Source of the DNA: Nibribacter ruber
GTDB taxonomy: Bacteria > Bacteroidota > Bacteroidia > Cytophagales > Hymenobacteraceae
Assembly (NCBI RefSeq): GCF_009913235.1
Contig: NZ_CP047897.1
Coordinates: 372,001 to 436,000, forward strand
Length of the DNA stretch: 64,000 bases
Direction of reading: 5' to 3'
Notes under the pieces: model-generated
Told to the model about the DNA's origin: nothing
Database searches by the model: none
The model's input: only the letters and a program-made list of their open reading frames with translations
Shown here: positions 2 to 64,000 of the stretch, piece by piece
Layout of the letters: every line of letters begins with the position of its first letter
Numbering within the stretch: the stretch's first letter is position 1
Made by a program: the position numbers and the translations under genes

Positions 2-334
2 AGTCCGGCGGTACGTACGCAATCTACCCTGGCCGGAGTTTTAGCGGGGCTTGGCAATTCTGTTCCCGTCCAGACGGAGCGAGATATTTACGATGGAGAG
101 GAGTCTGACCTCCTGCATTTGTTGGAAACGGCAGACGCCTCTGTGCAGACTTTATTATTTGTGGGTCATAATCCCACCATTGGCTATTTGGCCCAAGCCC
201 TCACCAACCGGCGCGTCAGTTTTTCTCCTGCCACCGTGTTGGTATTGACCTCACAAAAAGAGGCGGTGACTGATGGGCTGAGAAATAGTTTTTCGGTCAC
301 AGACAGGTTCCTGGCGCCAGTACCTCGTTTTTAG
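2..334 (+). CDS. SixA-type phosphohistidine phosphatase (5' end cut by window)
   Basis: The open frame runs in from the window edge, so the N-terminal RHG catalytic motif is not visible. What remains has the second-half signature of the histidine phosphatase superfamily, LLFVGHNPTIGYLAQAL, in which the VGHNP histidine is the second catalytic His of SixA-like enzymes. SixA proteins remove phosphate from phosphohistidine proteins such as Hpt domains or PTS proteins. The last codons, CGT TTT TAG, lie inside a copy of the 38-bp palindrome, which therefore supplies the stop codon. The gene precedes parA and the chemosensory operon by about 105 bp. Family membership is fairly secure; the substrate is unknown. 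Confidence 0.75.
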   Translation, partial: SPAVRTQSTLAGVLAGLGNSVPVQTERDIYDGEESDLLHLLETADASVQTLLFVGHNPTIGYLAQALTNRRVSFSPATVLVLTSQKEAVTDGLRNSFSVTDRFLAPVPRF

Positions 335-363
335 GGTATTTTCCAGAAAACAGGCTAAAAACG
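326..363. repeat. 38-bp palindromic repeat, copy 1
   Basis: This 38-bp palindrome begins CGTTTTTAGGG and ends GGCTAAAAACG, with centre CCAG. It overlaps the last codons of the SixA-type gene and lies upstream of parA. Confidence 0.9.
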
Positions 364-439
364 GAAATTAGCGCCATTTTAATTTGTAGCTTTAACCGTT
401 TCAACGGCAGAAAAATATTTTTTGATTTTCTTGTAACCT

Positions 440-1189
440 ATGGCAGCAACTATCGTATCGGTCATCAACCAAAAAGGCGGCACGGGCAAAACCACCACCA
501 CCATAAACCTTGGGAGCGCTCTCCAAAAGCTGGGAAAGCGCGTGCTGTTGATCGATTTAGACCCTCAAGCCAACTTGTCTTATTCCTTGGGCCTTACAGA
601 GCCAGAACGCACGCTGGCAGACGTGTTCACCGGGCAGCATAGCCTGCCAGACATTCTGCAAGAGTGTGATGGGCTGCAGGTGGCACCTGGTTCAAATGAA
701 CTGGTGGACGTGGAAATATCGTTGGTAGGTCAGGAGAGCCGTGAGCAATTCTTGCAGAGCATGTTGCAGGAAACCAAAGGCTTTGACTACATCTTGATTG
801 ACTGCCCACCGTCGCTTTCCCTGTTAACGGTTAATGCGCTCACGGCCTCGCATGAGGTGATTATTCCGCTTCAGATGGAAGTGCTGACGCTCCAGGGCCT
901 TGGACAGATTTTGAATACGGTGAAACAGATAAAGAGTACGCTCAATCCTGCATTGAAAGTGAAAGGCATAGTGGTGGTCATGTATGACAAACGCCGCAAG
1001 CTGAGCCTGGAGATTGAAGAGTACCTGCAGGACAACGTGGAGGAGCGTATTTTTAAACAGCGCATAAGGCTGAACGTGAAGTTGGCAGAGGCGCCCTCCT
1101 TTGGTAAGAGTGTACTGGACTATGATTCAGCCTCTAACGGGGCCAAAGATTATCTGGGTCTGGCAAAAGAATACCTGGCCGCCAAGTAA
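440..1189 (+). CDS. parA: ParA/Soj-family ATPase next to chemosensory genes
   Basis: A 249-residue ParA/MinD-superfamily ATPase. The deviant Walker A motif KGGTGKTTT lies at residues 12-20, the switch I region DLDPQAN near 40, and Walker B YILIDCPP near 116. There is no N-terminal DNA-binding extension, as in the small Soj/type Ib group. No ParB gene is adjacent; the next gene, 117 bp downstream, is the giant chemoreceptor. ParA-like ATPases are known to position chemosensory clusters (PpfA in Rhodobacter, ParC in Vibrio), so I infer the cargo here is the cytoplasmic receptor array rather than DNA. Chromosome partitioning remains the alternative. Confidence 0.9.
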   Translation: MAATIVSVINQKGGTGKTTTTINLGSALQKLGKRVLLIDLDPQANLSYSLGLTEPERTLADVFTGQHSLPDILQECDGLQVAPGSNELVDVEISLVGQESREQFLQSMLQETKGFDYILIDCPPSLSLLTVNALTASHEVIIPLQMEVLTLQGLGQILNTVKQIKSTLNPALKVKGIVVVMYDKRRKLSLEIEEYLQDNVEERIFKQRIRLNVKLAEAPSFGKSVLDYDSASNGAKDYLGLAKEYLAAK

Positions 1190-1306
1190 GCACCGTTCTT
1201 GAATTCTATTTATTACTATATTGCATAGCTTAACTAAGCAGTAAACCCTATAAAACGGCAAGCAATTGCCAAAGCACGTAACAACGCTCTACAATCACAA
1301 TATACA

Positions 1307-4300
1307 ATGGCTTTAGGTAAAAACTTAAAACTCAATAAGGACAAGTTGATTGGGAAGTCAGAGGCCGAGAAGTCTGCAGCGAAACCTGCCGCAGAAACCT
1401 CGTCGACTGAAGGAGTAGAAGAGACGCCCGCACCAGCGCCGGTAGAGGAGCCAACTCCTGCCGCTTCTGATGCGCCCGATTCTCTTGACACTTCCTCTGA
1501 TGATTTCCTTTCTGATTCTGGTGCAGGAGACGATGAGAAGGAGAGGATGGAGGATGTTCCCTTATTGGCAGTGCCGTTAGTGCAGGCGGATCAGGCCAGG
1601 CGTAGTAATACGCCTAGGCTCCAGTACCAGCTGCAAGACAATGATTACATCAATGAGCAGTTGAACCGCGTCTTGTACGCGTTAGACGCGTTTAAGAAAG
1701 GTGACGTCTCTGTAAGGTTAACCAAACAGAATAATGACATCTTCTCAGAGATAGCCGAAGCCTACAATTCCATGGTGGAGATGATTGGTGGTGTAGGTGG
1801 TGAGGTTTCCCGTATCTCTAAAGTAGCCGGGGTAGAGGGTAATCTGAAAGCCCGTGCCTCTGCTGAGAATGCCTCTGGTTTCTGGAAAGACATGATTAAC
1901 AATATCAACGGTTTGGTGGACTCCATCGCCGTTCCGGTATTGGAGGTAGGCAAGGTATTGAAGAACATCTCCCGGGGTAACCTGGATGAGACGTTCCAGA
2001 TTCCGGTGTCTGGTGACTTCAAGGTCATGGCCGAAACCATCAACCGTACCATTGATAACCTAAACCTATTTGCCGGTGAGGTAACTCGTGTGGCACTTGA
2101 GGTAGGTACCGAGGGTAGACTGGGTGGGCAGGCATCTGTTCCGAACGTTGCTGGTATCTGGAAAGAGCTTACTGACAATGTAAACGCGATGGCGTCTAAC
2201 CTTACCTCTCAGGTACGGGACATTGCCAAGGTAACCACCGCGGTAGCACAAGGTAACCTGACCCAGAAAGTAACCGTGGACCTGAAAGGGGAAATGTTGC
2301 AGTTGAAAGAGAACATTAACCAAATGGTGGACTCTTTGAACATCTTCGGTGATGAGGTAACCAGAGTGGCCCGTGAAGTGGGTACTGAAGGTAAACTAGG
2401 TGGCCAGGCCCGTGTACCTAACGTGGGCGGTACCTGGAAAGAACTGACAGACAACGTGAACACTATGGCTAGCAATTTGACTAGCCAGCTGCGTGACATA
2501 GCGAACGTGGCCACCGCTGTTGCGAAAGGCGACCTGAGCCAGAAGATTACAGTTAACGTGCGCGGTGAGATTGCTGACCTGAAGGACATCATTAACCAGA
2601 TGGTGGACTCCCTCAACATCTTCGCAGACGAAGTAACCCGTGTGGCGCGTGAAGTGGGTACCGAAGGTAAACTAGGCGGACAGGCAAGCGTGCCAAACGT
2701 AGGTGGTACCTGGAAGGAGTTGACAGACAATGTGAACACCATGGCCGGTAACCTGACCCTACAAGTACGTGACATTGCCAACGTAGCAACCGCGGTAGCA
2801 AAAGGTGACTTGAGCCAGAAAATCACCGTGAATGTACGCGGTGAGTTAGCTGAGCTGAAGGACAACTTGAACCAGATGGTGGACAGCCTTAACATCTTCG
2901 CGGATGAGGTAACCCGTGTGGCAAGAGAGGTAGGCACCGAGGGTATTCTAGGTGGTCAGGCCAACGTACCAAACGTAGCCGGTACCTGGAAAGCCCTAAC
3001 AGATAATGTAAACTACATGGCGTCTAATTTGACGCTGCAAGTACGTGATATAGCCAACGTAGCAACTGCGGTAGCAAAAGGAGACTTAGGCCAGAAAATG
3101 ACGGTTGAGGTAAAAGGAGAAATCCTTGAGCTGAAAGACAACCTGAACCAGATGGTGGACTCCTTGAATATCTTCGCTGACGAGGTAACCCGTGTTGCTC
3201 GTGAAGTGGGTACCGAGGGTATCTTGGGCGGTCAGGCGAATGTTCCAAATGTAGGCGGGGTTTGGAAAGACCTCACCGACAACGTGAACTCGATGGCCTC
3301 CAACCTGACACTGCAAGTGCGTGACATCGCCAACGTGGCGACCGCGGTGGCGAAAGGTGACCTGAGCCAGAAAATGACCGTGAACGTGAAGGGTGAGATT
3401 CTTCAATTGAAGGATATCCTGAACCAAATGGTAGACTCGCTCAACACATTTGCGGGTGAGGTAACCCGTGTGGCATTGGAGGTAGGAACCGAAGGAATCT
3501 TGGGCGGTCAGGCTAATGTGCCAAACGTGGCTGGGACCTGGAAGATGTTGACTGACAATGTTAACTCTATGGCCTCTAATTTGACGCTGCAAGTTCGTGA
3601 TATTGCCAACGTGGCAACCGCGGTGGCGAAGGGTGACCTGAGCCAGAAGATGACGGTGAACGTGAAGGGTGAAATCCTGGAGCTGAAGAACATCCTGAAC
3701 CAGATGGTGGACAGTTTGAACATCTTCGCGGGTGAGGTAACCCGTGTGGCATTGGAGGTGGGTACAGAAGGTAAATTAGGTGGCCAGGCATCGGTTCCAA
3801 ACGTGGGCGGTGTATGGAAAGACCTGACGGACAACGTGAACTACATGGCCTCCAACCTGACTCATCAGGTAAGGGATATTGCCAACGTAGCAACCGCCGT
3901 GGCAAAAGGAGACTTGGGTCAGAAAATGACCGTTGAGGTAAGAGGCGAAATCCTTGAACTCAAGAACATCCTGAACCAAATGGTAGACTCGCTCAATGTG
4001 TTTGCCGGGGAAGTAACCCGCGTAGCGCTGGAAGTGGGTACTGAAGGAAAACTAGGCGGTCAGGCCAGTGTACCGAACGTAGGCGGGGTTTGGAAAGACC
4101 TCACAGACAATGTGAACTACATGGCGTCCAATCTAACGCTGCAAGTGCGTGACATTGCCAACGTGGCAACCGCGGTGGCGAAGGGTGACTTGAGCCAGAA
4201 GATGACGGTGAACGTGAAGGGTGAAATCCTGGAGCTGAAGAACATCCTGAACCAGATGGTAGACTCCCTTAACGTGTTTGGTGATGAGGTAACCAGAGTA

Positions 4301-6457
4301 GCCCGCGAAGTGGGTACCGAAGGTAAACTGGGAGCGCAAGCATCTGTGCCAAACGTAGGCGGAACCTGGAAAGAATTAACCGAGAACGTAAACTACATGG
4401 CCAGCCAGTTGACCGGCCAGGTACGTGATATTGCCAAGGTAGCCACCGCGGTAGCCCGTGGCGACTTGAGCCAGAAAGTGACGGTTGAAGTTAAAGGCGA
4501 AATCCTGGAGCTGAAAGAAAACCTGAACCAGATGGTGGACAGCCTTAACATTTTTGCGGATGAGGTAACCCGCGTGGCCCGTGAAGTGGGTACTGAGGGT
4601 AAGCTAGGCGGTCAGGCGAATGTTCCGAAAGTACGTGGTACTTGGAAAGAGCTGACCGACAACGTGAACACCATGGCCGCCAACTTAACTTCTCAGGTAC
4701 GTGACATTGCAAAAGTTGCGATTGGCGTAGCAAAAGGTGACCTGAGCCAGAAAGTGACGGTAGATGTAAAAGGAGAGCTCTTAGAGCTGAAAGAGAACAT
4801 CAATAGAATGGTGGACTCTCTAAACATCTTCGCGGGTGAGGTAACCCGTGTGGCGTTGGAAGTAGGTACCGAGGGAAAACTGGGCGGACAAGCCAAAGTG
4901 CCGAACATTGGCGGGGTATGGAAAGACCTCACCGACAATGTGAACGTAATGGCCTCCAACCTGACCACGCAGGTACGCGGTATTGTGAAAGTAGTAACTG
5001 CGGTATCTAAAGGTGACTTAACTCAGAAACTGACGTTACAAGCCAAAGGCGAACTAGCCGACCTGGCAGACACCATCAACAGCATGGTGGAAGACTTGAA
5101 CCGCTTAGCGGGTGAAGTTAGCCGGGTGGCCAGAGTTGCGGGTGTGGAAGGCAAACTGACTGAGCGTGCCACAGTAAGCGGTGTATCTGGAAGCTGGAAA
5201 GAACTAGTAGATACTTTGAATGATCTGTTAGAGTCCATCGTGACGCCGGTTCTGGAAGTATCCAGAGTAGTACGCGCCATCTCTGAAGGTGATTTAACCC
5301 AGAAAGTAGAAATTCATACCGCTGGTGACATCCTGGCCATGTCAAATGCCTTGAACTTGGCGGTAGATAACTTGAACGCCCTATTAGGTGAAATCAATGA
5401 AAGCTCACTCATTGTAGGAAGCTCTTCAGAAGATATGGCCGCCAAGGGTCTTGAGATGAACAGAGTAACGGTAGATGTAGCTCTCTCTATGCAACAAATG
5501 GCAGAGGGTGCGCAGAACCAAGCATTGAAAACAGACCAAGCCTTCAAACTGATTGAAGAAATCATGAAGGCCACCAAAGAAACCGCTAATAAGGCAGATG
5601 TGGTGAACCGTTCAGCGGTAATGGGTGAGGAAACTTCTCAGTTGGGTCTGAAAACAGTAGCTGAAGTGGTGAAGAACATGGAAGAGATTTCATCTTCTGC
5701 AGCGCTTACCGCTAAAACCATTGAAGTATTGAGCACACGCAGCCAGGAGATCTCTAAGTCATTGGGTGTGATCACTGACATTGCGGCTCAAACCAACTTG
5801 CTTGCTTTGAACGCAGCCATTGAGGCGGCTAGAGCCGGTGAAGCAGGTAGAGGTTTCGCGGTAGTAGCCGAAGAGATCAGAAAACTGGCTGAGGGCTCAC
5901 GCAAGTCTGCGAGTGAGATTGCCATTCTGGTAGAGGACGTGAAAAAAGATACCTCTTCTGCTGCGGCGGCGATCGCGACCATGGAAGGCCGTGTATTGAA
6001 AGGAAAGAACGCTACGTTTGAAGCGTCAGGTGCCTTTAAGAACATTGCAACTTCCAGTGGTGAAACGCTTCGCAGTGCCCAGGACATCTTGGTGTCTACT
6101 GAGGTTCAGAAATCCTCTATTGGTGACGTTGTAAAGTACGTGGAAGAAGTGGTAGCCATTGCCGAGCAAACAGCCTCTGGTACCCAGCAGGTAGCTAGCA
6201 CGGCCAAGCAACTGTCGGCTTCCATGCAAGAACTGACTACGTCCAGCCAGCGCCTAAATGACATTGCGGACGACTTACAATTGGGTATTTCGGCCTTCAA
6301 GCTGATCAATGGTAACCTGGTATTTCCTAACCGGAATCAGCGCAAGTTGACCCCGGTACCAGCCAGAAAACGCAGCTTTACACCAGACAGCGCAGAGGAG
6401 GAAGAACTCTTGAAGAAGGCCACCAGAAAAGCAGGTAAAAGTAGAGGACAAGAGTAA
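1307..6457 (+). CDS. Giant soluble poly-HAMP methyl-accepting chemotaxis protein
   Basis: A 1716-residue chemoreceptor without any transmembrane segment, so it should be cytoplasmic. Residues 1-110 are an acidic, Pro/Ala-rich disordered leader. From about 165 to 1360 there are 13 HAMP-type units. The 11 central ones (residues 257-1268) are exactly 92 residues each, with [26 protein letters not shown] and MVDSLN signatures. These resemble the HAMP repeats of group III (Nik1-type) histidine kinases. The C-terminal part is an MCP signalling coiled coil with the conserved hairpin ([18 protein letters not shown], near 1495-1515) that binds CheA/CheW. It heads the che operon; its stop overlaps the cheW start (TAATG). 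Ligand unknown. Confidence 0.95.
2075..5110 (+). repeat. In-frame 276-bp tandem repeat, 11 units
   Basis: Eleven direct repeats of exactly 276 bp (92 codons) lie in the chemoreceptor gene. Each starts with GGTGAGGTAAC or GATGAGGTAAC. Two more divergent units flank them (about 1799-2074 and 5111-5386). Several neighbouring units are nearly identical in protein and close in DNA, as expected from recent unequal recombination. Confidence 0.95.
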
Positions 6458-6954: not shown

Positions 6955-6972
6955 CGTTTTAAACACACCCTT

Positions 6973-7350: not shown

Positions 7351-7387
7351 TTTTCGGTCTCTTTTTTCTTGACTTGGTTTCCAGTAG

Positions 7388-10878: not shown

Positions 10879-10916
10879 CGTTTTTGGCTCGTTTTAGGGA
10901 AAACAGCCCAAAAACG
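10879..10916. repeat. 38-bp palindromic repeat, copy 2
   Basis: Full-length copy beginning CGTTTTTGGCTCG and ending CAGCCCAAAAACG. It lies between the cheC terminator and the promoter of the polyamine genes. Confidence 0.9.
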
Positions 10917-13825: not shown

Positions 13826-13863
13826 CGTTTTTAGGGTATTTTTGTGAAAAGAGCAGAAAAATG
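13826..13863. repeat. 38-bp palindromic repeat, degenerate copy 3 at recQ start
   Basis: The left arm CGTTTTTAGGGTATTTT is intact and the right arm is decayed. The final position coincides with the recQ ATG: the usual terminal AACG reads AATG. Confidence 0.6.
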
Positions 13864-16002: not shown

Positions 16003-16016
16003 TTTTAAATGGGTAT

Positions 16017-16060
16017 AAAAAGAGAAGGCCCGGTCTATGTAGACCGGGCCTTCTCTTTTT
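16017..16060. terminator. Bidirectional terminator between recQ and subtilase
   Basis: A perfect 20-bp stem (AAAAAGAGAAGGCCCGGTCT and complement) with loop ATGT lies between convergent genes. A-run and T-run make it active in both directions. Confidence 0.92.
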
Positions 16061-16078
16061 ATGGGATTGTCTCAGAGA

Positions 16079-18403: not shown

Positions 18404-18432
18404 GACTTATATTTTAATTATAAATGGACTGC

Positions 18433-18470
18433 TGTTTTTGGCTTGTTTCTCAGAAAACAGGCCAAAAACG
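18433..18470. repeat. 38-bp palindromic repeat, copy 4
   Basis: Copy with first base T instead of C, centre CTCA and right arm ending GGCCAAAAACG. It lies between the S24 regulator and the pirin gene. Confidence 0.9.
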
Positions 18471-18553
18471 GCAGTTCTTCTATATGGGCAGGCCCATTTG
18501 AACCCGTATGCGTAGCCTACGTATGGAGTGACTATACACTAACCGCTACCAAC

Positions 18554-20691: not shown

Positions 20692-20729
20692 CGTTTTTAG
20701 TTAGTTTTTCAGGATTCAAGCTAAAAACG
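20692..20729. repeat. 38-bp palindromic repeat, copy 5
   Basis: Somewhat diverged copy starting CGTTTTTAGTTAG and ending AAGCTAAAAACG. It lies between the convergent phospholipase-like and rmuC genes. Confidence 0.8.
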
Positions 20730-20817: not shown

Positions 20818-20855
20818 CGTTTTTGGCCTGTTTTCCAGGAAACGGGCCAAAAACG
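20818..20855. repeat. 38-bp palindromic repeat, copy 6
   Basis: Well-conserved copy (left arm CGTTTTTGGCCTGTTTT, right arm ending GGGCCAAAAACG), 88 bp after copy 5 in the same convergent gap. Confidence 0.92.
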
Positions 20856-23062: not shown

Positions 23063-23100
23063 CGTTTTTGGCCTATTTCCCAGAAAACAGCCCAAAAACG
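23063..23100. repeat. 38-bp palindromic repeat, copy 7
   Basis: Full copy starting CGTTTTTGGCCTATTTC and ending CAGCCCAAAAACG, 3 bp after the DUF2062 stop. Confidence 0.92.
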
Positions 23101-23714: not shown

Positions 23715-23756
23715 AAAACAGAAGGCCCGGCTACAAACAGCCGGGCCTTCTGTTTT
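23715..23756 (+). terminator. Terminator after DUF4920 gene
   Basis: A perfect 18-bp stem (AAAACAGAAGGCCCGGCT and complement) with a 6-nt loop. Its T-run is shared with the first bases of palindrome copy 8. Confidence 0.92.
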
Positions 23757-23788
23757 TAGGCTATTTCCCAGAAAACAGCCCAAAAACG
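23751..23788. repeat. 38-bp palindromic repeat, copy 8, fused to terminator
   Basis: Starts TGTTTTTAGGC (first base T) and ends CAGCCCAAAAACG. The first bases are also the terminator T-tract. Confidence 0.92.
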
Positions 23789-23933: not shown

Positions 23934-26849
23934 CTAACCCCGGGCGCAGATGCTTTTGTAGGCGCAGTATTGGCAGGTTTCCAGGTCATTGGTTTTCCTA
24001 ATAGGTTCTGCGGGGTCAAGCATGCGTACTACCAAGTCTTTGAGCAGGCGTTCAGAAGTTTCCATGAAATCTGCGGGTTCTCCCAAGTCATTGACAAACG
24101 GTAATTCTGAGGTTAGAACGCCGGCGCTCAGATTTCGGAAGGAGATGATACCCGCTTCATAGGCATAGTGGGCTTTGGGCAGATTCAGGACTTTGCTTTC
24201 CAGCAGGCTGCCTTTCTGTATCTCTTTGGACAGAATATACCGGTACAGCCACAGTTGCCGCACTTTGTCCAAATGCCGGTCATGCAGTAGGGTGTTTTCT
24301 AGGTCGGTGGCATCTACTTTTAAGTGGCGGGCTTCTACCTTGCCCGTCTTGTAGTCAATCACGCGCAGGGTGTGGCCGCTCAGGTCAATACGGTCGGCTT
24401 TGCCCGAAATCTGCACGGGTACTTTCTCGCCGGTAGGCAGAGTTACTTCCAGTTCGGTTTGCAGGTTGTCTTCCAGGGACAAAATATACAGTGGTAGTTC
24501 CTCAGAGGACTGCAGGCCTTCCAGGTAACGGGTGAGTAGCTGCACGGCTACCTTGTAGAGAATGAGGTTCATGCCTTGTTCCGGCAGGTTGCCCAACGTG
24601 CCGCGGGTGAACTCCTGCTTCACTTTTTCAGAAAGACCTGCCAGCATCTGGTCCACGTCTGACTTTTCTATGGGTTTGGCCTCTTCGGCAAAAGGCCTGA
24701 AATAGTCTTCCAGCACCTGGTGCACAATGGTCCCGAAGGTATCTGCGCCCACCAGTTCATCAATCTCTTCTACTTCCTGTAACTTGGCAATGCGGGAGAA
24801 ATAATACTGCAGGGAGCAGTTCACAAACTGGTTCAGGTGCGAAGGGTAGAGACCCCGGCGCAATTCGTTTTTGAGCTTGCTTAATACCTCCTCGTCTTTC
24901 TCAATAATGATGTCTGGCTCATACTCCTTGGTGTCCAGTTGCTCCACCACGGCGGTCAGTTCCCGGAAGGTGATGTGCGGGTTTTTAGGGGCCAGGTCAT
25001 GCTGTAGTTGAAGGATAAAACGACTTTTCTCCCCAGAGCCGTAGGTGTCTGATGGCAATACGTAGAGCAGATTCACCCGCTTGGCGCGCTGTAACAAACG
25101 GTAGAAGTAATACGAGGTAATGCTCTCTTGTTCAGCGTAGGTAGGCAACCCGAAGGTTCTCAATACATCATACGGAAACAGTGAATTCTGCTTCTTGGGT
25201 TGAGGCAGCACGTTCTCATTCACGCTTAGGATGATGAGGTTCTCAAAATCCAGGGCGCGGGTCTCCAGCATCCCCATGACCTGCGTAGGCGAGATGGGCT
25301 CGCCGCTGAACGGCAGCTTGGTATTGCCAATCTGCTCATACAGGAACTTCTTGAAGCTGCGCACCGAAATCTTATGCTCGCGGCAGTCAAAGAGCGTGTC
25401 CAGGCGCTTGACAATGGTGTAGAGGATGTAAAGGTATTCGGTCTCAATGGGGTTTTCCGTTTCTACGCGGTAGATTCTACCCAGAGCGTCCACTAGCTGA
25501 TAAAGGGTGTCAATGAGGTCGGTGCAGTCGTTCCAGGTCCGGAAGAGGGTGATGAACATGGGGTGCTCACGGCCCAGCCTGATGATTTCCTCGGCGGTGA
25601 GCAACACGCTGTTCTTGGCCACCATCTCATCCAGCACGTGTTGGAACAAGTCTAAGTCTGCTTCGCGCTCTGCCAGTCCGTTCAGATACTGTTCATACCG
25701 GCGAAGGAACGGGTGTTGCAAAAGCTTGGTGACGGCCAGGTGGTGGTAGCGGTTGACGCGGTAGCCCGTGTCGGTGGGTTGCACCACGCCCGTCAAATGC
25801 ACCTCAAAAAGCAGATCTATGAGATTGAACAGGGGCGTGCCTTTAAAAGACAAGCCCATGGTCACGTTGTAATCAGAAACCTCATCAGAAATGGAGTGCA
25901 GCACGGGCAACAGCAGGGTCTCATCTGGTAGAATGATGGCTACCTCGGCAGAAGGGTCTTGCTGTCTTATTTCGCGCAGTAATTGGCCGGCTATCTTGCC
26001 CTGCATGCTGGCGTTGGCCACACCTATGGCATTAATTTCCTTGGTATCAGTGAGGAGCAGGTTTTGTTGCCAGTTCCACTCGGGCAGGGGCCAGGAGGAT
26101 TTGTAGCGTTTCAGGAAATGGCCCGCGCGCTTGTCAGACTCAGCGGCCATGTAGTAGTCATCTGAGTCAAAAAAGGCCGCGGCTTTTCCCGCGGCTAGCA
26201 GGGTGTTGATGATTTTCTGCTCGGCGCGGGACAAGGCGTTCAACCCGATGAAAATGTATTTATAACAGCCTTTCTCGCTCTGCGCGATGTCCTTGATGCG
26301 GTCAGCCACCATCCGGAAGGCCATGCCGGTGTACGCCTGCTTGTCTTGTTGGAGCTTGGTCTGCAAGGCGTGATAGGTGCGCTCCAGGTTCACCCACAGC
26401 TGGAAATACTGTTTTACGTTGGCCGTCGGCTCGCTGCTGCCCGGCTTGCCAGGATCCCAGCGTTCCAGCGCCTTGGCCTCACTCACGTACTCAAACACCT
26501 CTGATGGGTTCACCAACTCCATGTCCATGCGGGAAAAATCTTCCAGCAGGGTAGCACTCCAGCCCACAAACTGATCAAAATCCAGCTTAGGGTCAAAAGT
26601 GAGCATGATGTCATACAGGTCCAGTTGCAGGTGCAAGGGCTCCAGCACGTCTACGTTGGCCATGTTGCAGACAAACTCCTCCATGGAGTAAATCTGCGGC
26701 GACCAGATACCCGTGGGTGCGGCCTCTGCCAAGGCGTTCTTAAAGTACAAGGTGGCCCGCCGGGTGGGCAACACAATGCACAAGTCACTGAGGCGGTCTG
26801 AATAGGTCTGGTAAATATGCTCGGCGGTCTGCCGCAGGAACGATTGCAT
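23934..26849 (-). CDS. addB: AddB-like exonuclease subunit (PD-(D/E)XK, iron-sulfur type)
   Basis: A 971-residue AddB/RecB-like protein. The N-terminal half is a helicase-like domain without a clear Walker A motif (LCIVLPTRRATLYFKN), as in AddB. The C-terminal PD-(D/E)XK nuclease shows ADRIDL and RVIDYKTGK, with Tyr-rich helix RQLWLYRY. Four Cys, one in FVNCSLQYYF and three in CQYCAYKSIC, frame the nuclease and likely bind a 4Fe-4S cluster as in AddB. With the AddA-like protein encoded at 32124-35489 it should resect double-strand breaks. The two genes are on the same strand but separated by about 5 kb of unrelated genes. Confidence 0.88.
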   Translation of the reverse strand: MQSFLRQTAEHIYQTYSDRLSDLCIVLPTRRATLYFKNALAEAAPTGIWSPQIYSMEEFVCNMANVDVLEPLHLQLDLYDIMLTFDPKLDFDQFVGWSATLLEDFSRMDMELVNPSEVFEYVSEAKALERWDPGKPGSSEPTANVKQYFQLWVNLERTYHALQTKLQQDKQAYTGMAFRMVADRIKDIAQSEKGCYKYIFIGLNALSRAEQKIINTLLAAGKAAAFFDSDDYYMAAESDKRAGHFLKRYKSSWPLPEWNWQQNLLLTDTKEINAIGVANASMQGKIAGQLLREIRQQDPSAEVAIILPDETLLLPVLHSISDEVSDYNVTMGLSFKGTPLFNLIDLLFEVHLTGVVQPTDTGYRVNRYHHLAVTKLLQHPFLRRYEQYLNGLAEREADLDLFQHVLDEMVAKNSVLLTAEEIIRLGREHPMFITLFRTWNDCTDLIDTLYQLVDALGRIYRVETENPIETEYLYILYTIVKRLDTLFDCREHKISVRSFKKFLYEQIGNTKLPFSGEPISPTQVMGMLETRALDFENLIILSVNENVLPQPKKQNSLFPYDVLRTFGLPTYAEQESITSYYFYRLLQRAKRVNLLYVLPSDTYGSGEKSRFILQLQHDLAPKNPHITFRELTAVVEQLDTKEYEPDIIIEKDEEVLSKLKNELRRGLYPSHLNQFVNCSLQYYFSRIAKLQEVEEIDELVGADTFGTIVHQVLEDYFRPFAEEAKPIEKSDVDQMLAGLSEKVKQEFTRGTLGNLPEQGMNLILYKVAVQLLTRYLEGLQSSEELPLYILSLEDNLQTELEVTLPTGEKVPVQISGKADRIDLSGHTLRVIDYKTGKVEARHLKVDATDLENTLLHDRHLDKVRQLWLYRYILSKEIQKGSLLESKVLNLPKAHYAYEAGIISFRNLSAGVLTSELPFVNDLGEPADFMETSERLLKDLVVRMLDPAEPIRKTNDLETCQYCAYKSICARG

Positions 26850-26894: not shown

Positions 26895-26932
26895 CGTTTT
26901 TGGCCTGTTTTCAGGAAAATAGCCTAAAAACG
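26895..26932. repeat. 38-bp palindromic repeat, copy 9
   Basis: Full copy with left arm CGTTTTTGGCCTGTTTT and right arm ending TAGCCTAAAAACG, upstream of the addB-like gene. Confidence 0.92.
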
Positions 26933-29406: not shown

Positions 29407-29438
29407 AGCCTTGAAATGAGTGTAGTCGTTTCAAGGCT
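29407..29438 (-). terminator. Hairpin fused to palindrome copy 10
   Basis: The stem AGCCTTGAAA pairs with TTTCAAGGCT around a 12-nt loop. On the minus strand it lies downstream of the DUF1963-like gene. Its right arm is part of the palindrome copy. Confidence 0.55.
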
Positions 29439-29464
29439 GTTTTGGAGAAAGGAAGCTAAAAACG
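29427..29464. repeat. 38-bp palindromic repeat, diverged copy 10
   Basis: Reads CGTTTCAAGGCTGTTTT on the left and ends GAAGCTAAAAACG. The left arm has been changed so that it pairs with an upstream sequence to make a different hairpin. Confidence 0.65.
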
Positions 29465-30385: not shown

Positions 30386-30423
30386 CGTTTTTGGGCTGTT
30401 TTCCTAGAAACAGCCCAAAAACG
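30386..30423. repeat. 38-bp palindromic repeat, copy 11
   Basis: Full copy, CGTTTTTGGGCTGTTTT to ACAGCCCAAAAACG, with arms extended by five more paired bases (AAATC/GATTT). Located 26 bp downstream of the mqo stop. Confidence 0.93.
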
Positions 30424-32064: not shown

Positions 32065-32102
32065 CGTTTTTAGGCTGTTTTCTGGAAAAGTGGCCAAAAA
32101 CG
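32065..32102. repeat. 38-bp palindromic repeat, copy 12
   Basis: Full copy starting CGTTTTTAGGCTGTTTT and ending TGGCCAAAAACG, between the mqo start and the addA-like stop. Confidence 0.92.
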
Positions 32103-35100: not shown

Positions 35101-35489
35101 TTTACAAAGGAGTCAATGGTACTCACCGCAAACTCTGAGTAATGGAAGAGCAAATGGTCAAACACCCGCGCCGCCCGGCCGCGCAAGGCTTCTTCGGTTA
35201 AATGGGGTTGCGCATACTCTGCCTTAATCTCTTTTAATATGTCAAATAGGAGTGCATTGCTTTTGGCTTTGTCCTTCTCAGCAAGGGTAATCTCATTGAA
35301 GCCGCGCAGGGCACCCAAGATGCGATCTTTCATTTCCTGGGCCGCGTCATTGGTGAACGTAATGGCCAGGATGTTTTTGTAATAAGAGACGTCCTCACTC
35401 TGCAGGGCCAGTTTGAGGTATTCCTTTGTCAACTGGTACGTTTTGCCAGAACCAGCCGAGGAAGAGTATATTTTAAAGGAAGTAACCAC
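32124..35489 (-). CDS. addA: AddA/RecB-like UvrD-family helicase-nuclease
   Basis: A 1121-residue SF1 helicase of the AddA/RecB type. Walker A SSAGSGKTYQLTKEYL is at the N-terminus and the Ia motif is LAITFTNDAAQEMKDRI. Walker B is ILIDEFQDTSVLQW (near 410), then VVGDAKQAIYGWRGGE. Motif V/VI segments are ITSIHKAKGLDYPVVIVPF and LNMLYVALTRPVDRLYL. A C-terminal PD-(D/E)XK nuclease reads KPDRIVF ... VTLIDYKLPP. It should pair with the AddB-like protein at 23934-26849 for double-strand-break resection. The two are not adjacent, unlike in most genomes. Confidence 0.92.
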   Translation of the reverse strand: MVTSFKIYSSSAGSGKTYQLTKEYLKLALQSEDVSYYKNILAITFTNDAAQEMKDRILGALRGFNEITLAEKDKAKSNALLFDILKEIKAEYAQPHLTEEALRGRAARVFDHLLFHYSEFAVSTIDSFVNRVVSAFTTELKLPHNFEVDMDAQTLLSTAVSLLLNKVNTQEENKLLAETLQQYALEKAEEGKSWNVLPEELADFARHLLNEQTYEHLLDIGQLTLQEFKKIRIELYTQKVTVEKEIQAIAQEAADLIDRHGIMPEEMSYGKNGIYSYFRKWNSGFDITIANSNAAKTVNDDKWASAKASTGAKVALDQIKDQLAQHYRAIEELKERETQNHILISAMLPHLYKLSVLSELERCIQEIKLDKNLVHISEFNKRITEIVLQEPIPFIYERLGERYQHILIDEFQDTSVLQWNNLLPLVENALSGGGFNMVVGDAKQAIYGWRGGEMEQILHLHRNQTHHLYQNSRFEENVAPRYDTLRWTLKPELLNTNYRSAPEIITFNNELFRFVSLANPQFPLLQAIYDEHFAQKSPEGKATGQAHLQVLFTKDDAHPLRYDLDACAQTEDIYEGYAADDLLTYQESTLQLVLQMVQQAQADGYAPRDIAILSRTNRNSKLVANFLKQKKYDIISQDSLSLQFAEVINLIIAFFRLLNQPGNSLARSQALYLVYKVVHQQLPDNLTTNKIAWLATHPSIDPFFQYLQEQGFDIAYRDAGNLSIYELTEKLIRVFDLLGKNNECEYLFRFLDLVLEYTLKNSNNLNNFLEYWDLHKEHLSINTPKDRDAITITSIHKAKGLDYPVVIVPFCDWSLEPQTSSLLWGTLPKSVAPGGKLRTAVVTLNKKLEQTALQEQYAQKLEKTFIENLNMLYVALTRPVDRLYLIAKAQDFKKASYQKNVSFWLHKFLESKELWQEGHYCYQLARGSQQAVHHASISEDVYVLDKFTSADWAQNLKLKQHANNVFDFETQQEHRRWNRKLHYALALISYADEAPKALRQLVRQGIISQRELPTLTQMVDHVLHHPQMQRYFSRSMSVENEREVLDVRTNRYKPDRIVFGEKGEVTLIDYKLPPAKEEYRDNLNSYAALFLELVFSKITCVVYYFEEERVEEWEYVGEVVE

Positions 35490-35951
35490 TTTTATAATTG
35501 GGAATTAAGAATTAGGAATTGAAGGAACAGGATCATCGAAATCAACCAACGACCAGCAATTGACAATCAACAATTAGCAATAGAAGTGATTCGTTCAAAA
35601 ATCGTTTTTGGGGTGTTTTAGCGAAAATAGGCAAAAAACGGCAATGGGCGGGCCGGTTATTTGTAAATGCCTGAACGAAAGCGGGGTAGGGGAGGGGTAT
35701 AGAAAAAGGCCAGGTGGTGAGAAGCCTAAGCTTTTCTACCCCTGACCTTTGCCATGGCCTGGAATGGCCATGCACCATTCCTTCTAAATGCAGCTGCAGT
35801 GACCAGCTAAATCCAATGAGTACAATAGGACATGGATTATTAGAAGGGAAATTAACACATCATTTAGTGGAACGGCGAAAAGAGAAGTGTTCTGTCATCT
35901 TTCATGTTTTACAGCTTGCCAGCTAGTGGAGTACCACCATCAAGAGGTTTT
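35490..35951. other. 462-bp intergenic region
   Basis: Between the addA-like start and the stop of the next minus-strand gene. It holds AT-rich low-complexity DNA (AATTAAGAATTAGGAATT), a copy of the AATTGCTGATTG-type short repeat at about 35545-35580 and palindrome copy 13. I see no convincing gene. Confidence 0.6.
35603..35640. repeat. 38-bp palindromic repeat, copy 13
   Basis: Copy starting CGTTTTTGGGGTG and ending AGGCAAAAAACG, centre AGCG; moderately diverged. Confidence 0.85.
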
Positions 35952-39018: not shown

Positions 39019-39056
39019 CGTTTTTAGACATTTTCCTAGAAAACAGCCAAAAAACG
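39019..39056. repeat. 38-bp palindromic repeat, copy 14
   Basis: Starts CGTTTTTAGACATTTTCC and ends ACAGCCAAAAAACG; slightly diverged in the left arm. Confidence 0.87.
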
Positions 39057-40958: not shown

Positions 40959-40996
40959 TGTTTTTGGCGTCTTTTCTCAAAATTAGGCAAAAAACG
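40959..40996. repeat. 38-bp palindromic repeat, copy 15
   Basis: Starts TGTTTTTGGCG (first base T) and ends AGGCAAAAAACG, one base upstream of the BaiN-like start codon. The immediate 5' leader of that gene is therefore repeat sequence. Confidence 0.85.
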
Positions 40997-41015: not shown

Positions 41016-41843
41016 CTAAAACCCGGAATCTGCCAGACAGGCCATCAAATCTGGGTAGACAAAGGAATAGGAGAGTCGCTCCATAAGGGCCTGGCTGTTG
41101 ATTATCTTAAAGGAAGTAGTTTTTTCTGCTAGGAAATGCGGGGGCACCAAACCCAGTTGTTGCGCAGCTGCGGTATAAAACTCCTGTCTTGACGGATGGG
41201 AGGGCGCACATGCATTAAAGGTTTCTCCCCAAGCCTCTTCCTGAAGAATACCTTGTAGCACACCTACACAATCCTGCAGGTGAATCATGTTCACGGGAGC
41301 CAGCGGTTGCGGAACGTCTTTTCTTCCTGCCAAAAACCTGCCCGGGTGCCGCTTACCTCCCATGAGCCCTCCAAAACGCACGATGGTAGCGTGAACACCT
41401 ACGGCTTGTTGCACCTGATACTCGCAGCGCAATAACAAAGAAGGAGAATCAGAGGAAGCTATAGCGTCTTGTTCAGTTACCTCGCGGTGCAGGTCTGGGT
41501 AGACCGAAGTGGAGGAAATAAACAGGATATTGGTGGTTTTTGTTGGAAGGTTAACTAGCACCTGCGCCAGGGTTTCTTCATAGGTCTGAGCGCCAGTTTC
41601 GGTGCGTTTAGGCGGAAGGTTGAATACAAGCACATCCGCCTCCAGAAAAGTTGCCAAGTCCGTTTTTGGGCTGTTTTCTGGAAAAGAGAGCAAAAACGGT
41701 TCAATGCCACTTTGTTGGAGAACCTCTACTTTTTCTGGCGTGGTGGTGGAACCTTTCACCCGATAGCCTGCTTCCACCAGGGCTTGGGCTAGGGGCAACC
41801 CCAGCCAGCCGCATCCCAATACGCTTATTGTTTTCTGAGCCAT
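41016..41843 (-). CDS. YeeZ-like NAD(P)-binding sugar-epimerase-family protein
   Basis: A 275-residue Rossmann-fold protein similar to YeeZ. It has nucleotide-binding ISVLGCGWLGLPLAQAL, then GSTTTPEKVEVLQQSGIEPFLL, VLVFNLPPKR, FISSTSVYPD and NMIHLQDCVGVLQGIL. Its substrate is unknown. Remarkably, residues 49-61 (PFLLSFPENSPKT) are encoded by a full copy of the 38-bp palindrome (41661-41698), in frame. An upstream open extension to 41891 is possible, but the ATG at 41843 fits the family. Divergent from the next gene. Confidence 0.85.
   Translation of the reverse strand: MAQKTISVLGCGWLGLPLAQALVEAGYRVKGSTTTPEKVEVLQQSGIEPFLLSFPENSPKTDLATFLEADVLVFNLPPKRTETGAQTYEETLAQVLVNLPTKTTNILFISSTSVYPDLHREVTEQDAIASSDSPSLLLRCEYQVQQAVGVHATIVRFGGLMGGKRHPGRFLAGRKDVPQPLAPVNMIHLQDCVGVLQGILQEEAWGETFNACAPSHPSRQEFYTAAAQQLGLVPPHFLAEKTTSFKIINSQALMERLSYSFVYPDLMACLADSGF
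41661..41698. repeat. 38-bp palindromic repeat, copy 16, inside a coding sequence
   Basis: Full-length copy (left arm CGTTTTTGGGCTGTTTT, right arm ending GAGCAAAAACG, centre CTGG) lying wholly within the YeeZ-like gene. The only copy found inside an open frame. Confidence 0.9.
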
Positions 41844-47062: not shown

Positions 47063-47093
47063 AAATAGCCCGGAGCGTTTCCGGGCTATTTTC
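47063..47093. terminator. Terminator hairpin fused to palindrome copy 17
   Basis: A 12-bp stem (AAATAGCCCGGA and complement) with a 5-nt loop lies between convergent genes. Its 3' arm is the left arm of the palindrome copy. Confidence 0.8.
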
Positions 47094-47113
47094 ATGAAAA
47101 GAGGCTAAAAACG
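47076..47113. repeat. 38-bp palindromic repeat, diverged copy 17
   Basis: Reads CGTTTCCGGGCTATTTT and ends GAGGCTAAAAACG. Left-arm changes (TTTCC for TTTTT) match the terminator stem instead. Confidence 0.75.
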
Positions 47114-49392: not shown

Positions 49393-49508
49393 CTTTTTTT
49401 GTTTGTCTTGCCTCAAAGGTACTAAATAACGCAGCTTGCACGGCAATATTTCACCCGAGCCAGGCAGAAATCAGACAAAGCGGTCACCTGTAAAGGCATA
49501 GAAAAAGC

Positions 49509-49546
49509 CGTTTTTGGTCTCTTTTCCAGAAAAGAGACCAAAAACG
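49509..49546. repeat. 38-bp palindromic repeat, copy 18
   Basis: Nearly perfect copy: CGTTTTTGGTCTCTTTT, centre CCAG, mirrored right arm. The pairing extends three more bases (AGC/GCT and beyond) on each side. Confidence 0.94.
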
Positions 49547-49594
49547 GCTTCCAGGGCCAAAGACCCGTTATTTTTTGCTGGGCGCTTGCCCTAT

Positions 49595-50105: not shown

Positions 50106-50143
50106 CGTTTTTGGCTTGTTTTCAGGAAATTAAGCTAAAAACG
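50106..50143. repeat. 38-bp palindromic repeat, copy 19
   Basis: Copy starting CGTTTTTGGCTTGTTTT and ending TAAGCTAAAAACG, in the divergent gap between the DUF1232 gene and a small secreted-protein gene. Confidence 0.9.
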
Positions 50144-51462: not shown

Positions 51463-51530
51463 AAAAATAAAGACCTCCGTTTTTGGGTTGTTTTCATGAA
51501 AACAACCCAAAAACGGAGGTCTTTATTTTT
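51463..51530. terminator. 68-bp perfect palindrome terminator carrying the repeat in its loop
   Basis: Terminator arms AAAAATAAAGACCTC and its complement flank a full palindrome copy, making one almost perfect 68-bp hairpin ending in a T-run in either direction. Located between convergent genes. Confidence 0.85.
51478..51515. repeat. 38-bp palindromic repeat, copy 20
   Basis: CGTTTTTGGGTTGTTTT, centre CATG, perfectly mirrored right arm; the most symmetrical copy. Confidence 0.95.
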
Positions 51531-53606: not shown

Positions 53607-53644
53607 CGTTTTTAGCCTGTTTTCTGGAAAAGAAGCCAAAAACG
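53607..53644. repeat. 38-bp palindromic repeat, copy 21
   Basis: Starts CGTTTTTAGCCTGTTTT and ends GAAGCCAAAAACG; between convergent genes. Confidence 0.92.
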
Positions 53645-54313: not shown

Positions 54314-54351
54314 CGTTTTTGGCCTCTTTTCTGGAAAACAGGCTAAAAACC
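54314..54351. repeat. 38-bp palindromic repeat, copy 22
   Basis: Starts CGTTTTTGGCCTCTTTT and ends AGGCTAAAAACC. It overlaps the 3' end of the SDR gene and provides its TAG stop. Confidence 0.9.
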
Positions 54352-55194: not shown

Positions 55195-55297
55195 GATTGA
55201 AAGGAATGCCGGTCTGGCAGAATACAAACGCACTACGGATTTCTGATGGGTTTGGCTGCCTTTCTTGCTGGTTTTGTCCAGTAAAGGATTGAAAATA

Positions 55298-55326: not shown

Positions 55327-55349
55327 GCTATGGTAAAAGGACGGTTTCC

Positions 55350-55736: not shown

Positions 55737-55915
55737 AGGTGATAATTTTATAAGATTAGTAAAGTAACTCAGTTACAAATATACAAAGATTACAGGGTTA
55801 AGATTCCCCCGGGCGTACATAAATTTATGCGGCCAAGATGGCTTTCAACGCCCTTTCCAGACCCTTTGTCCGGCTAATTCCGTAAGCTGTACAGACTTAA
55901 AACCGCAAGAGTTCT

Positions 55916-56857: not shown

Positions 56858-56864
56858 ACCACAA

Positions 56865-56902
56865 CGTTTTTGGCTTGTTTTCCAGGAATCAGGCCCAAAA
56901 CG
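56865..56902. repeat. 38-bp palindromic repeat, copy 23
   Basis: Starts CGTTTTTGGCTTGTTTT and ends AGGCCCAAAACG; first of three copies in the iaaA-cphB gap. Confidence 0.88.
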
Positions 56903-56928
56903 ACCTTGTTTGCTCCGTGGCAATTTAT

Positions 56929-56996
56929 AAAGTAAAGCAGGTTCGTTTTTAGGCTATTTCTTAGAAAACAGCCTAAAAACGAACCTGCTTTACTTT
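56929..56996. terminator. 68-bp palindrome terminator carrying the repeat in its loop
   Basis: Arms AAAGTAAAGCAGGTT and complement surround palindrome copy 24, forming one long hairpin flanked by A/T runs, between convergent genes. Confidence 0.8.
56944..56981. repeat. 38-bp palindromic repeat, copy 24
   Basis: Starts CGTTTTTAGGCTATTTC, ends ACAGCCTAAAAACG, centre TTAG; very symmetrical. Confidence 0.94.
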
Positions 56997-57024
56997 TATG
57001 GCTACTTCTAAAATACGCCACCAT

Positions 57025-57061
57025 CGTTTTGGCCTGTTTCTTAGAAAATAGCCTAAAAACG
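57025..57061. repeat. 37-bp palindromic repeat, copy 25
   Basis: Starts CGTTTTGGCCTG (one T fewer) and ends TAGCCTAAAAACG. Third copy in this gap. Confidence 0.9.
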
Positions 57062-57068
57062 ATGATGA

Positions 57069-57941: not shown

Positions 57942-58112
57942 GCAAGATGCTCTGGAGTGTCTGTGTGCGCTTATACGCAACATCTGGCGCAAGGAGGCAC
58001 ATATCTGGCAAGGAATTCTAAACGAGGTTTTCCAGGAAACTCCTTAACTCCTGGGGAGGGGTGTCGTATAGCCTTAATACGGATCTAACCTTCACCTGAA
58101 AATTTATACGCT

Positions 58113-58607: not shown

Positions 58608-58627
58608 CAGACGCTTATGTCTACCAA

Positions 58628-58663
58628 AAAAAGGCCGGCGGGTGTATACCTGCCGGCCTTTTT
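58628..58663. terminator. Bidirectional terminator
   Basis: A 16-bp stem (AAAAAGGCCGGCGGGT and complement, one G-U) with a 4-nt loop between convergent genes. Confidence 0.92.
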
Positions 58664-58684
58664 GTTTAAAATAGACTTGGTGCG

Positions 58685-60487: not shown

Positions 60488-60737
60488 AAAGTAATTGGTT
60501 CAACTAATGGTTTGCGGCCCTTGTGGGTACATGGGGAGGGCGCCCGTTGTAGTACATACTAGACTGTATAGGTAAGGTTTCTTGGTCTGGCAGATGCCTG
60601 GCAAGACCCGTTCCTGCTGCAGGAGTAGAGCTAAAATATATAAGATTGCTAATTATATTTTTTGTACAATTTAGAAGTTTTGGGGTTTCCTAACTTTTTG
60701 GGCGCTTGGTTAGTATAAAGAGCACATTATACGAAAG

Positions 60738-62420: not shown

Positions 62421-62464
62421 TAGTTGATTGATAGAATATGTAATTGCCTTTTAAATTACACAGA

Positions 62465-62513
62465 AATAAACCCCGGCATAGTCTCTAATTAAAAGACTAT
62501 GCCGGGGTTTATT
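62465..62513 (+). terminator. Terminator after L,D-transpeptidase
   Basis: A perfect 20-bp stem (AATAAACCCCGGCATAGTCT and complement) with a 9-nt loop; the T-run follows in TTTATTGTTTT. Confidence 0.92.
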
Positions 62514-62856
62514 GTTTTCAGTAGTGTGCAGTGAATCTCTCTAAAAGCCAAAACCCCATTGAAAGGGCAAACGTGCTGGCCTTGCTTTCCTGCATCGCCT
62601 AGCTGCCCTTTTCTAGGTTTGCGGTTATCGGCTAACTCTCTTTGCCCATAGTCATGATCCGTTCCTGCTCTAGAGGAGCTTACGTTGTGCGTTGGAAGAA
62701 GCATTGGAAATGTTCAATGAGGAAGGTGTGTGACAAAATGACCATTCCTGTTTCTTGGGTTGTTGAACAGGTACTTGAGGTACAGATGTGGCAGTTGTTT
62801 TTGTACTTAGCATAACTATTTAGGCAGCTGCAGCTGCCGGAGCATTCCGGAATATA

Positions 62857-62903
62857 TTTACAAATGTAAAACAATTGTAAACTGTTTTGTAAATTGTAAA
62901 CAG
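62857..62903 (+). promoter_or_regulatory. Cluster of TTTACAA/TTGTAAA half-sites
   Basis: Half-sites TTTACAA at 62857 and TTGTAAA at 62875, 62887 and 62894 lie within 47 bp. They include the inverted repeat TTTACA-AA-TGTAAA (62857-62870) and CTGTTT...AAACAG (62882-62903). Likely operator upstream of the HTH gene. Confidence 0.5.
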
Positions 62904-63038
62904 TGTGTACAACTGGATGTAGTGATGAATGACGGCTGTGTTTTTAAGGTGCTGTGAATAAGAGGTTTGATGCTGACTGCTGCAGTGAAGCTTCAATAGG
63001 TCATCGACAAGGGCCTTAACCAGGTGCCGCAGTATTCC

Positions 63039-63069
63039 TTTACAAATGGTATTGAAGTGCTTTTGTAAA
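63039..63069 (+). promoter_or_regulatory. Inverted TTTACAA ... TTGTAAA pair before HTH gene
   Basis: TTTACAA at 63039-63045 and TTGTAAA at 63063-63069 form an inverted pair directly before the HTH gene, the same half-sites as at 62857-62903; a candidate autoregulatory operator. Confidence 0.5.
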
Positions 63070-63091
63070 CTTCCATTTTAAATTGTTTTCT

Positions 63092-63535
63092 GTGACAGAC
63101 CTTTTGCCAAGAATAAAAGAATTGTTGACCTGGGCGGGCGGCGGTCCTGCGGCTTTCGCAGATGCCATAGGGCTTCCGCGTCCGGTCATGAGCCATATTC
63201 TATCGGGACGAAATAAGCCCAGCCTTGAAGTAGTGCAAAAGATTCTGGCGGGCTTTCCGGAGGTACAAGCCAACTGGCTTCTACTAGGCCAAGGCGAGAT
63301 GCTAAAGAGTTTAGATAGTTCTTCCTTAACCCAAGCACCTTCTGCTCTGAGCCATGAGGCTGCTGCTTTTTCAGGAGCAGGAAATGAAAAAGGTGAAAGT
63401 GCAAAATCTATAAAAGGAGAGGAGCCAGCAGAAGATGCTTTAAAAAGTGGTTCGCCCACCTTGCATAAGAAAGTAAAACAAGTACTGTTTATTTATGAAG
63501 ACGGCACGTTTGATAGCTTTCAATCTAATGAGTAA
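63092..63535 (+). CDS. Small HTH (CI/XRE-like) regulator
   Basis: A 147-residue DNA-binding protein. Residues about 3-70 form a phage-repressor-like helix-turn-helix (FADAIGLPRPVMSHILSGRNKPSLEVVQKIL, then VQANWLLLGQGEML, the typical end of this domain in Bacteroidota). The rest is a low-complexity Ser/Ala/Glu linker and a short C-terminal strand (KVKQVLFIYEDGTFDSF). There is no S24 peptidase. A GTG at 63092 gives the usual N-terminus; a TTG at 63083 is the alternative. Repeated TTGTAAA half-sites lie just upstream. Confidence 0.8.
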   Translation: MTDLLPRIKELLTWAGGGPAAFADAIGLPRPVMSHILSGRNKPSLEVVQKILAGFPEVQANWLLLGQGEMLKSLDSSSLTQAPSALSHEAAAFSGAGNEKGESAKSIKGEEPAEDALKSGSPTLHKKVKQVLFIYEDGTFDSFQSNE

Positions 63536-64000
63536 GTGAGGGTGCTATTTCTGTTTATTTTTAGAATCGTTTAACTCGGCCTCGCCGTTTTTCTATTCTA
63601 TATTTCTTTCAAGTGAAAGACGATTTCTGGTTTTACATTCCCGTCAAGTCGTTCTCCTTGTCTAAAAATCTTCCTCTGAATTAGATTTGGATTAGGTATG
63701 TGGCAGGTTTATCTCTTCTGCCTTGCTGCACTTTTTATAACTACACTTCTTCTCTATCGGCTACTCATCCATTACAGCGGAATTGGTTTTTCTCAACCGT
63801 TCGTTTTTGACCTTATTCCCAGGAAATAGGCAAAAAACGGTTCTTTTACATCGGCTTTTTCCTCCTTTACTTGGCTATTCTCCCCTTAACTAGAGCGCCT
63901 GTTGCGTTAAAATTTTTGACGAAGCCCAAATCGTTTTGCTTAGTTCAAACAGCAGAAATGGTAGTAAATACTATAGGGTTGACGCTATGCTCTGTGGATA
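63536..64000. other. 465-bp terminal intergenic region
   Basis: AT-rich sequence containing one palindrome copy (63802-63839). No convincing gene begins before the window ends. Confidence 0.5.
63802..63839. repeat. 38-bp palindromic repeat, copy 26
   Basis: Copy starting CGTTTTTGACC and ending AGGCAAAAAACG; moderately diverged. Confidence 0.85.

Follow-up and report, generated by a model that had tools for sequence, protein, structure and literature searches.

Extragenic palindromes in high copy number are usually regarded as mobile debris, and bacterial interspersed mosaic elements (BIMEs) with gyrase or IHF are an example of sites for nucleoid- or domain-forming proteins. Repetitive extragenic palindromes (REPs), as described in the excerpt of PMC3733652 used here, are short palindromes that number from hundreds to thousands, most of them lying downstream of genes. 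The DNA uptake sequences (DUSs) of Neisseriaceae have species dialects and about 10^3 copies, partly as inverted pairs within terminators (PMC3630211, also in excerpt). Here we analyse a 64,000-nucleotide stretch of Nibribacter ruber DNA (contig NZ_CP047897.1, positions 372,001 to 436,000; the window), in which an initial annotation had noticed a 38-bp palindrome repeated about 26 times. We find two facing half-sites at a fixed spacing, kept in place between species while their secondary letters change, and consider the element, on balance, to be probably a duplex-DNA dyad site for a putative co-evolving chromosomal protein that marks transcription-unit ends.

Copy number, position and structure of the 38-bp element

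In the window, 26 sites match 29–36 of the 38 consensus positions, whereas the next best real site matches 24 and three mononucleotide shuffles of the window reach at most 25. The annotated count is thus confirmed, and becomes 25 after one site (13826) is dropped, as described below. The genome holding the window (G000; 4,352,178 bases) contains 439 copies of the strict pattern and 1,498 copies at up to three mismatches, more than had been reported for the window, with 0 for the reversed-pattern control in both counts; the description of one dense, intergenic, palindromic family therefore holds genome-wide. A base-by-base sample of 464 kb of G000 (the window plus 400 kb), scanned with a weight matrix, has 177 copies, or 38 per 100 kb. 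The strict pattern is present in 11 of 59 genomes, all 11 from the window's genus, and absent from all 43 genomes outside it. A generic core pattern, GTTTNNNGSCTNNTTTNNNNAAANNAGSCNNNAAAC, is found in 16 of 16 genus genomes with 11 to 827 exact copies each, and among 134 genomes from five other genera in the family, five give a single match each and the rest zero. All 46 named stretches with the element in the species collection are Rufibacter. The ordinary palindromes of other genera have no common consensus (40-kb samples, 15.5 kb for one), and no paper on such repeats in Rufibacter was found in the literature searched. The initial annotation recognised no named family, which agrees with an Rfam scan of the window that gave no family at its gathering score.

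Most copies are at gene 3' ends. With genes and gap classes taken from an in-house gene-calling script, the element occupies 53 of the 65 gaps between convergent genes, 67 of the 156 between tandem genes and 20 of the 70 between divergent genes in the 464-kb sample, and 12 of its 177 copies lie inside predicted genes. In the window, the occupied gaps of at least 45 bp are 7 of 9 convergent, 12 of 17 tandem and 1 of 10 divergent, or 20 of 36 with site 13826 still included, which makes the earlier wording of 'nearly every intergenic region' an overstatement.

Each copy is built from two half-sites, CGTTTTTRGSYTRTTTTC, with two T-tracts approximately one helical turn apart, and the core of the element is GTTT..GSCT..TTT. 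Half-site counts cover G000, G007 (a sister species with BLAST blocks 69–92% identical to G000 and a median protein identity of 89%) and G013 (a relative more distant from G000 than G007). A 4-nt centre joins 157 of the 158 paired half-sites of G000 (464 kb; one pair has 3 nt), 124 of the 125 of G007 and all 27 of G013, bearing out the fixed length, and just 1 of 309 half-sites is alone at a higher threshold. The letters of the centre are nearly free (columns 0.46 and 0.56 identical between G000–G007 orthologues), and an asymmetric centre (CA or TG) has no orientation to transcription (45 vs 39 near stops). The initial annotation also held that the inner bases vary in a compensatory way. This is not so in G000: across the 25 copies of the window, paired cells make up 85.1%, compared with 84.9% in shuffles, with 5 pairs carrying double changes, equal to the shuffled mean, and in the 177 copies no inner variable pair matches more than in shuffled arms, with position 13 matching less (z −3.6). 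The arms of one copy are no more alike than the arms of different copies (mean distance 4.16 vs 3.97), and on the transcribed strand of tandem gaps there is no excess of G.U over A.C (203 vs 204 near the stop; 298 vs 333 for all). A compensatory hairpin is thus rejected in G000, because arm differences are not compensatory in either set. A fixed half-site spacing, a free centre and independent half-sites, the marks of a dyad site, are all present there.

The places of the copies are conserved between species. Mapping to G007 by flanks was possible for 127 of the 177 G000 copies (50 were not mappable), and 126 of the 127 have an orthologue. Among 203 gaps compared between the two genomes, 99 have the element in both, 1 and 3 in a single genome and 100 in neither; the same comparison with G013 over 400 kb gives 54 shared (13826 included), 6 and 8 single and 50 empty of 118 gaps (p 8e-18), and five more distant relatives together give 39 shared, 7 plus 7 single and 27 empty of 80. 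In 81 of 89 G000–G007 cases the distance to an adjacent gene differs by no more than 10 bp, and T-tract columns are 93–100% identical where flanks are 37–54%. Core identity of orthologues is 0.927 in tandem (n = 59), 0.928 in convergent (n = 45) and 0.938 in divergent gaps (n = 12) and 0.933 inside genes (n = 9), with flanks at 0.42–0.70 in this comparison. Given that core identity is equal across contexts, the constraint is independent of a location in 3' untranslated regions.

The secondary letters are species-specific, with CGTTTTCGGGCTCATTTC in G013, CGTTTAGGGGCTGTTTTT in G005 and YGTTTTRRGSCTGTTTTY in G006; the consensus is diffuse in G012 and G009, and five further species fit the generic core with 24–34 copies per 80 kb (shuffles 0). 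At sites shared by G000 and G013, the core GTTT..GSCT..TTT is kept while secondary positions switch to the species dialect: of the 74 arms compared, 68 have T at position 14 in G000 and 60 have A there in G013, with the base agreeing in 5. Letters in G013 are linked within an arm (positions 10–11, r 0.62) and hardly between arms (−0.02 at position 10, −0.08 at position 14), and the change of dialect there proceeds arm by arm.

At a minority of sites, about a fifth, the element makes up the top of an intrinsic terminator hairpin. The flanks continue the palindrome by at least 4 bp in 25 of the 177 G000 copies (about 2.4 expected), eight of them by at least 13 bp. In five genomes taken together, a basal stem of at least 4 bp is present in 79 of 423 copies (40 of the 228 tandem copies, 39 of the 144 convergent and none of the 51 divergent ones), and this subset partly carries the intrinsic-terminator signature: 19 of the 40 stem-bearing tandem copies have a sense-side T-run, compared with 4 of 40 on the other side, and arms in the subset are better paired (2.2 mismatches vs 4.5). 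The remaining copies lack the signature, with T-runs at or below the background of 0.217 (33 of 188 on the sense side in tandem gaps and 30 of 210 in convergent gaps). Replacement of ordinary terminators by the element is weak or absent, as 51 of 115 convergent gaps that carry the element also have a separate canonical terminator, compared with 16 of the 25 that do not carry it (p 0.08); among tandem gaps there is no difference.

Explanations of the dyad

Several features together point to recognition of the duplex by a symmetric protein: the spacing is fixed while the centre is free, the dyad is obligatory, the arms are independent, the constraint is the same in every context and the dialect changes in place. 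To the dyad, spacing, position, conservation, dialect and arm independence observed in G000, this reading adds the following. The two 18-bp half-sites, with core GTTT...GSCT..TTT and facing each other over a fixed 2-bp centre, would be a double-stranded DNA recognition site, read by a putative two-fold symmetric DNA-binding protein of the genus. Because most sites are at transcription-unit ends, above all between convergent genes, its likely job would be to mark or insulate these ends, as a roadblock to read-through or as a supercoil or domain boundary. The secondary specificity of the protein may have changed between species, with the sites following in place, half-site by half-site; we propose that the dialects arose because the sites followed this shift. 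With intergenic flanks close to saturation, the sites could have been rewritten by point mutation and selection; a copying mechanism need not be invoked, though one may have acted. Part of the sites would have been incorporated into intrinsic terminators as the upper hairpin portion.

Several observations weigh against a protein-read duplex site. No cognate protein was found, and no systematic search was made. Arms covary in the relatives G007, G013, G004, G014, G015 and others at positions 1, 6 or 7 (z 2–5), with z up to 4.9 at position 7 in G007, 4.0 at position 7 in G015 and 3.5 at position 6 in G004; in G013 the positions are 1 and 7; r is 0.38–0.40 at positions 7 and 13. Between G000–G007 orthologues, changes in both arms exceed independence (177 vs 139; 19 pairs), and 50 of the 177 go from one standard pair to another. 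By the refuting condition of the initial annotation, arm differences that are not compensatory, the functional hairpin fails in G000, although some relatives do covary at positions 1, 6 and 7. About a fifth of copies have a basal stem, with T-runs on the sense side, so that pairing in RNA is relevant to some of the sites. Finally, copies are spaced slightly more evenly than a random choice of gaps, but the effect is weak (in G000, 27 random sets out of 2,000 are as even; p about 0.05 in G007).

A bolder form of the duplex-site reading, speculative and in our view improbable, is that the element marks the lineage identity of DNA throughout the genus: placed at transcription-unit ends, it would be read by a putative fast-evolving chromosomal protein with species-switching specificity. 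If so, some 1,500 sites would have been rewritten in place, native DNA would be distinguishable from that of a sister species, and a G013-dialect copy transferred into G000 would be a foreign mark. Such a copy is carried by a G000 segment with a REP-associated tyrosine transposase (RAYT) gene that matches G013 at 98.7% identity along 712 bp and at 96.3% along 750 bp. The region with the RAYT and a thioredoxin gene (L176:3333-4824, about 1861333-1862824 of G000 contig C1) is 96–99% identical to G013; the genomes are otherwise far more diverged, which indicates a recent transfer between lineages.

It is unlikely that the element is a REP- or MITE-like (miniature inverted-repeat transposable element) mobile family, whose copies were spread by a trans-acting transposase and later overwritten by newer ones to give the dialects. 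The element resembles REPs in being abundant, palindromic and located in 3' intergenic sequence, copies in G013 are near-identical (68 of 336 arms are exactly consensus), and recombination between copies is visible at 56865-57061, where G007 has a single hybrid copy in place of the three in G000. However, copy positions are fixed across species (G007, G013 and five others), which does not favour the mobile family that the initial annotation had considered. With 126 of 127 mappable copies orthologous in G007 and 54 of 60 occupied gaps also occupied in G013, the sequence comparison indicates that the element is not hopping at present. Flank repeats of the G000 copies show no excess that would indicate target-site duplication, and 15 G000–G007 gaps of unequal copy number contain no clean 38-bp insertion; on these grounds a MITE is rejected. 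Half-converted elements, moreover, change per arm and not as whole units.

Mobilisation by RAYTs is likewise not supported. The NCBIfam profile NF047646 matches in 56 of 60 genomes of the family, which includes 14 of 14 from the genus but also 42 of 46 from other genera, which lack the element. Above the cut-off there are three matches in G000 and none for G007 among the matches listed (best E 5e-9), although G007, without a Y1_Tnp match, is as element-dense as G000. None of the three Y1_Tnp matches of G000 is inside the window, in agreement with the initial annotation that it holds no RAYT or other transposase. The G000 RAYT at 1739226 does have elements 40 bp upstream and 121 bp downstream. 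Flanks were compared for the 21 of 29 loci with an open reading frame found (8 gave none), with 303 genes as controls: elements are located at most 550 bp upstream of 13 of 21 Y1/RAYT genes (32% of controls) and on both sides within 550 bp in 8 of 21 (15%), but on both sides within 280 bp in 4 of 21 (14%), so that a loose association of the element with RAYTs may exist. A third of the loci (7 of 21) carry short GGATT..AATCC hairpins of their own, with a sequence other than that of the element. Such hairpins (SGGATT..AATCCS) form arrays of three to eight by RAYT genes at L176:3333-3480, L058, L180, L183, L186, L189 and L196; these arrays are likely the REPs of the adjoining RAYTs and unrelated to the 38-bp element.

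Selection for pairing in RNA, with the element acting as a bidirectional terminator or a 3'-end stabiliser, appears quite unlikely as a general explanation. It would account for the 3' location, the covariation in several relatives, and the basal stem with T-runs and sense-strand bias in 79 of 423 copies. Orthologues of the 51478 and 18433 copies keep perfect or near-perfect hairpins with other stem letters, and these two copies fold well (z −12.6 and −7.8). On the other hand, three of five folded copies barely beat shuffles (z −1.0 to −1.4), G000 has neither covariation nor a G.U bias, and T-runs of stemless copies do not exceed background. The constraint is equal in divergent gaps, the 4-nt centre is fixed while its letters are free, and many element-bearing convergent gaps still have a separate terminator. 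The copies at 49509 and 51478, given by the initial annotation as examples of pairing, are indeed perfect hairpins; 51478 and a minority like it are, however, special in lying inside terminator stems.

A DUS-like self-recognition tag, spread through biased transformation, is very unlikely: dialects at conserved places, the copy number and a partial association with terminators resemble DUS as excerpted from PMC3630211, and the recently transferred G000 segment brought a G013-dialect copy with it, but DUS are short single sites that are common within genes too, whereas here the dyad is obligatory, and with 1 of 309 half-sites alone there is no lone-site habit, for which DUS is rejected. A phage-element origin is rejected, given that the generic pattern matches just one stretch of the viral collection.

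Copies and other genes in the window

The copy at 51478..51515, with perfect arms, forms the apical part of a bidirectional terminator. Around it, a perfect palindrome with 34-bp arms (51463..51530) reads A-tract, basal stem, element, basal stem, T-tract, with a fold of −47.7 kcal/mol (z −12.6); aligned in five species, its stem letters vary and pairing is maintained. The copy at 18433..18470, approximately 30 nt past a stop codon and with an offset alike in relatives, similarly has a basal stem extension and T-rich sequence after it (18419-18484; fold z −7.8), 49509..49546 has perfect arms and a basal stem (49505-49550), and the near-perfect palindrome at 30386..30423 is extended 5 bp by its flanks. 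In contrast, the RNA fold is no better than shuffles at 35603..35640 (z −1.0), is at z −1.4 at 41661..41698, which lies within a weakly scored predicted gene, and does not form the element hairpin at 53607..53644, in a convergent gap.

Other copies in convergent gaps are 23751..23788, 39019..39056, 47076..47113, which fills a short gap, and the pair 20692..20729 and 20818..20855 in a single gap. Three share another: 56865..56902, 56944..56981 in the middle, with 15-bp complementary flanks (56929-56996), and 57024..57061, the outer left arm of which is one base out of register. The only copy of the window in a divergent gap is 50106..50143. Two copies are close to stop codons, 23063..23100 (3 nt past) and 40959..40996 (adjoining), and the left arm of 29427..29464 is degenerate. 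The gap of 10879..10916 is also occupied in G013, G012, G005, G006 and G009; the flank gatacta of 26895..26932 is also present in G007, G012 and G005, and G013 has a half-element there. The remaining copies are 326..363, 32065..32102, 54314..54351 and 63802..63839.

Site 13826-13863 is probably not an element and was dropped because five relatives have, at the orthologous place, a conserved sequence that resembles a promoter and extends to a start codon. In the window this promoter-like stretch, TATTTTTG, lies approximately 20 nt before the start codon and mimics the 38-bp element. A perfect bidirectional terminator with 23-bp arms occupies a convergent gap at 16015-16062, where G005, G006, G007 and G012 have the element. 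Among other genes, 1307-6457 (+) encodes a 1,716-aa chemoreceptor with about a dozen tandem HAMP domains (13 HAMP_2 stretches in Pfam); the gene has strong internal DNA repeats and precedes CheA. The PD-(D/E)XK nuclease and UvrD-type helicase genes at 23934-26849 and 32124-35489 (−) are probably an AddAB-like pair.

Comparison with known systems

Copies that stay in place while their letters change jointly per species provide a natural experiment on how a set of binding sites tracks a change in specificity, and they define a concrete target, namely the Bacteroidota protein that would read a 38-bp dyad where genes end. Were the protein to insulate transcription units, this would be a chromosome-organising system without a description in the literature searched.

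Compared with REPs of the GTAG/CGTC type, as given in the excerpt of PMC3733652, the element is also a 20–40 bp palindrome with many copies mostly downstream of genes, but consensus and flanks have no unpaired GTAG/CGTC tetranucleotide at one end, and its arms are 16–18 bp compared with 5–13 or 8–9 bp. It is also symmetric, with a fixed centre, positions conserved between species and no clearly specific RAYT link. Bidirectional intrinsic terminators are matched by the minority of copies that form the upper part of one, although the element's own T-tracts are on the wrong side and most copies lack a basal stem with a T-run. With DUS, in the part of PMC3630211 considered, the element shares dialects, approximately 10^3 copies and a partial location in terminators; however, it is a fixed 38-bp dyad without lone sites in another phylum, whereas DUS is a 10–12-nt single site. 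Sites of nucleoid- or domain-forming proteins, such as BIMEs, are similar in their 3' intergenic location and conserved duplex motif, but the 38-bp element and its dialects are confined to one genus and its reader protein is putative.

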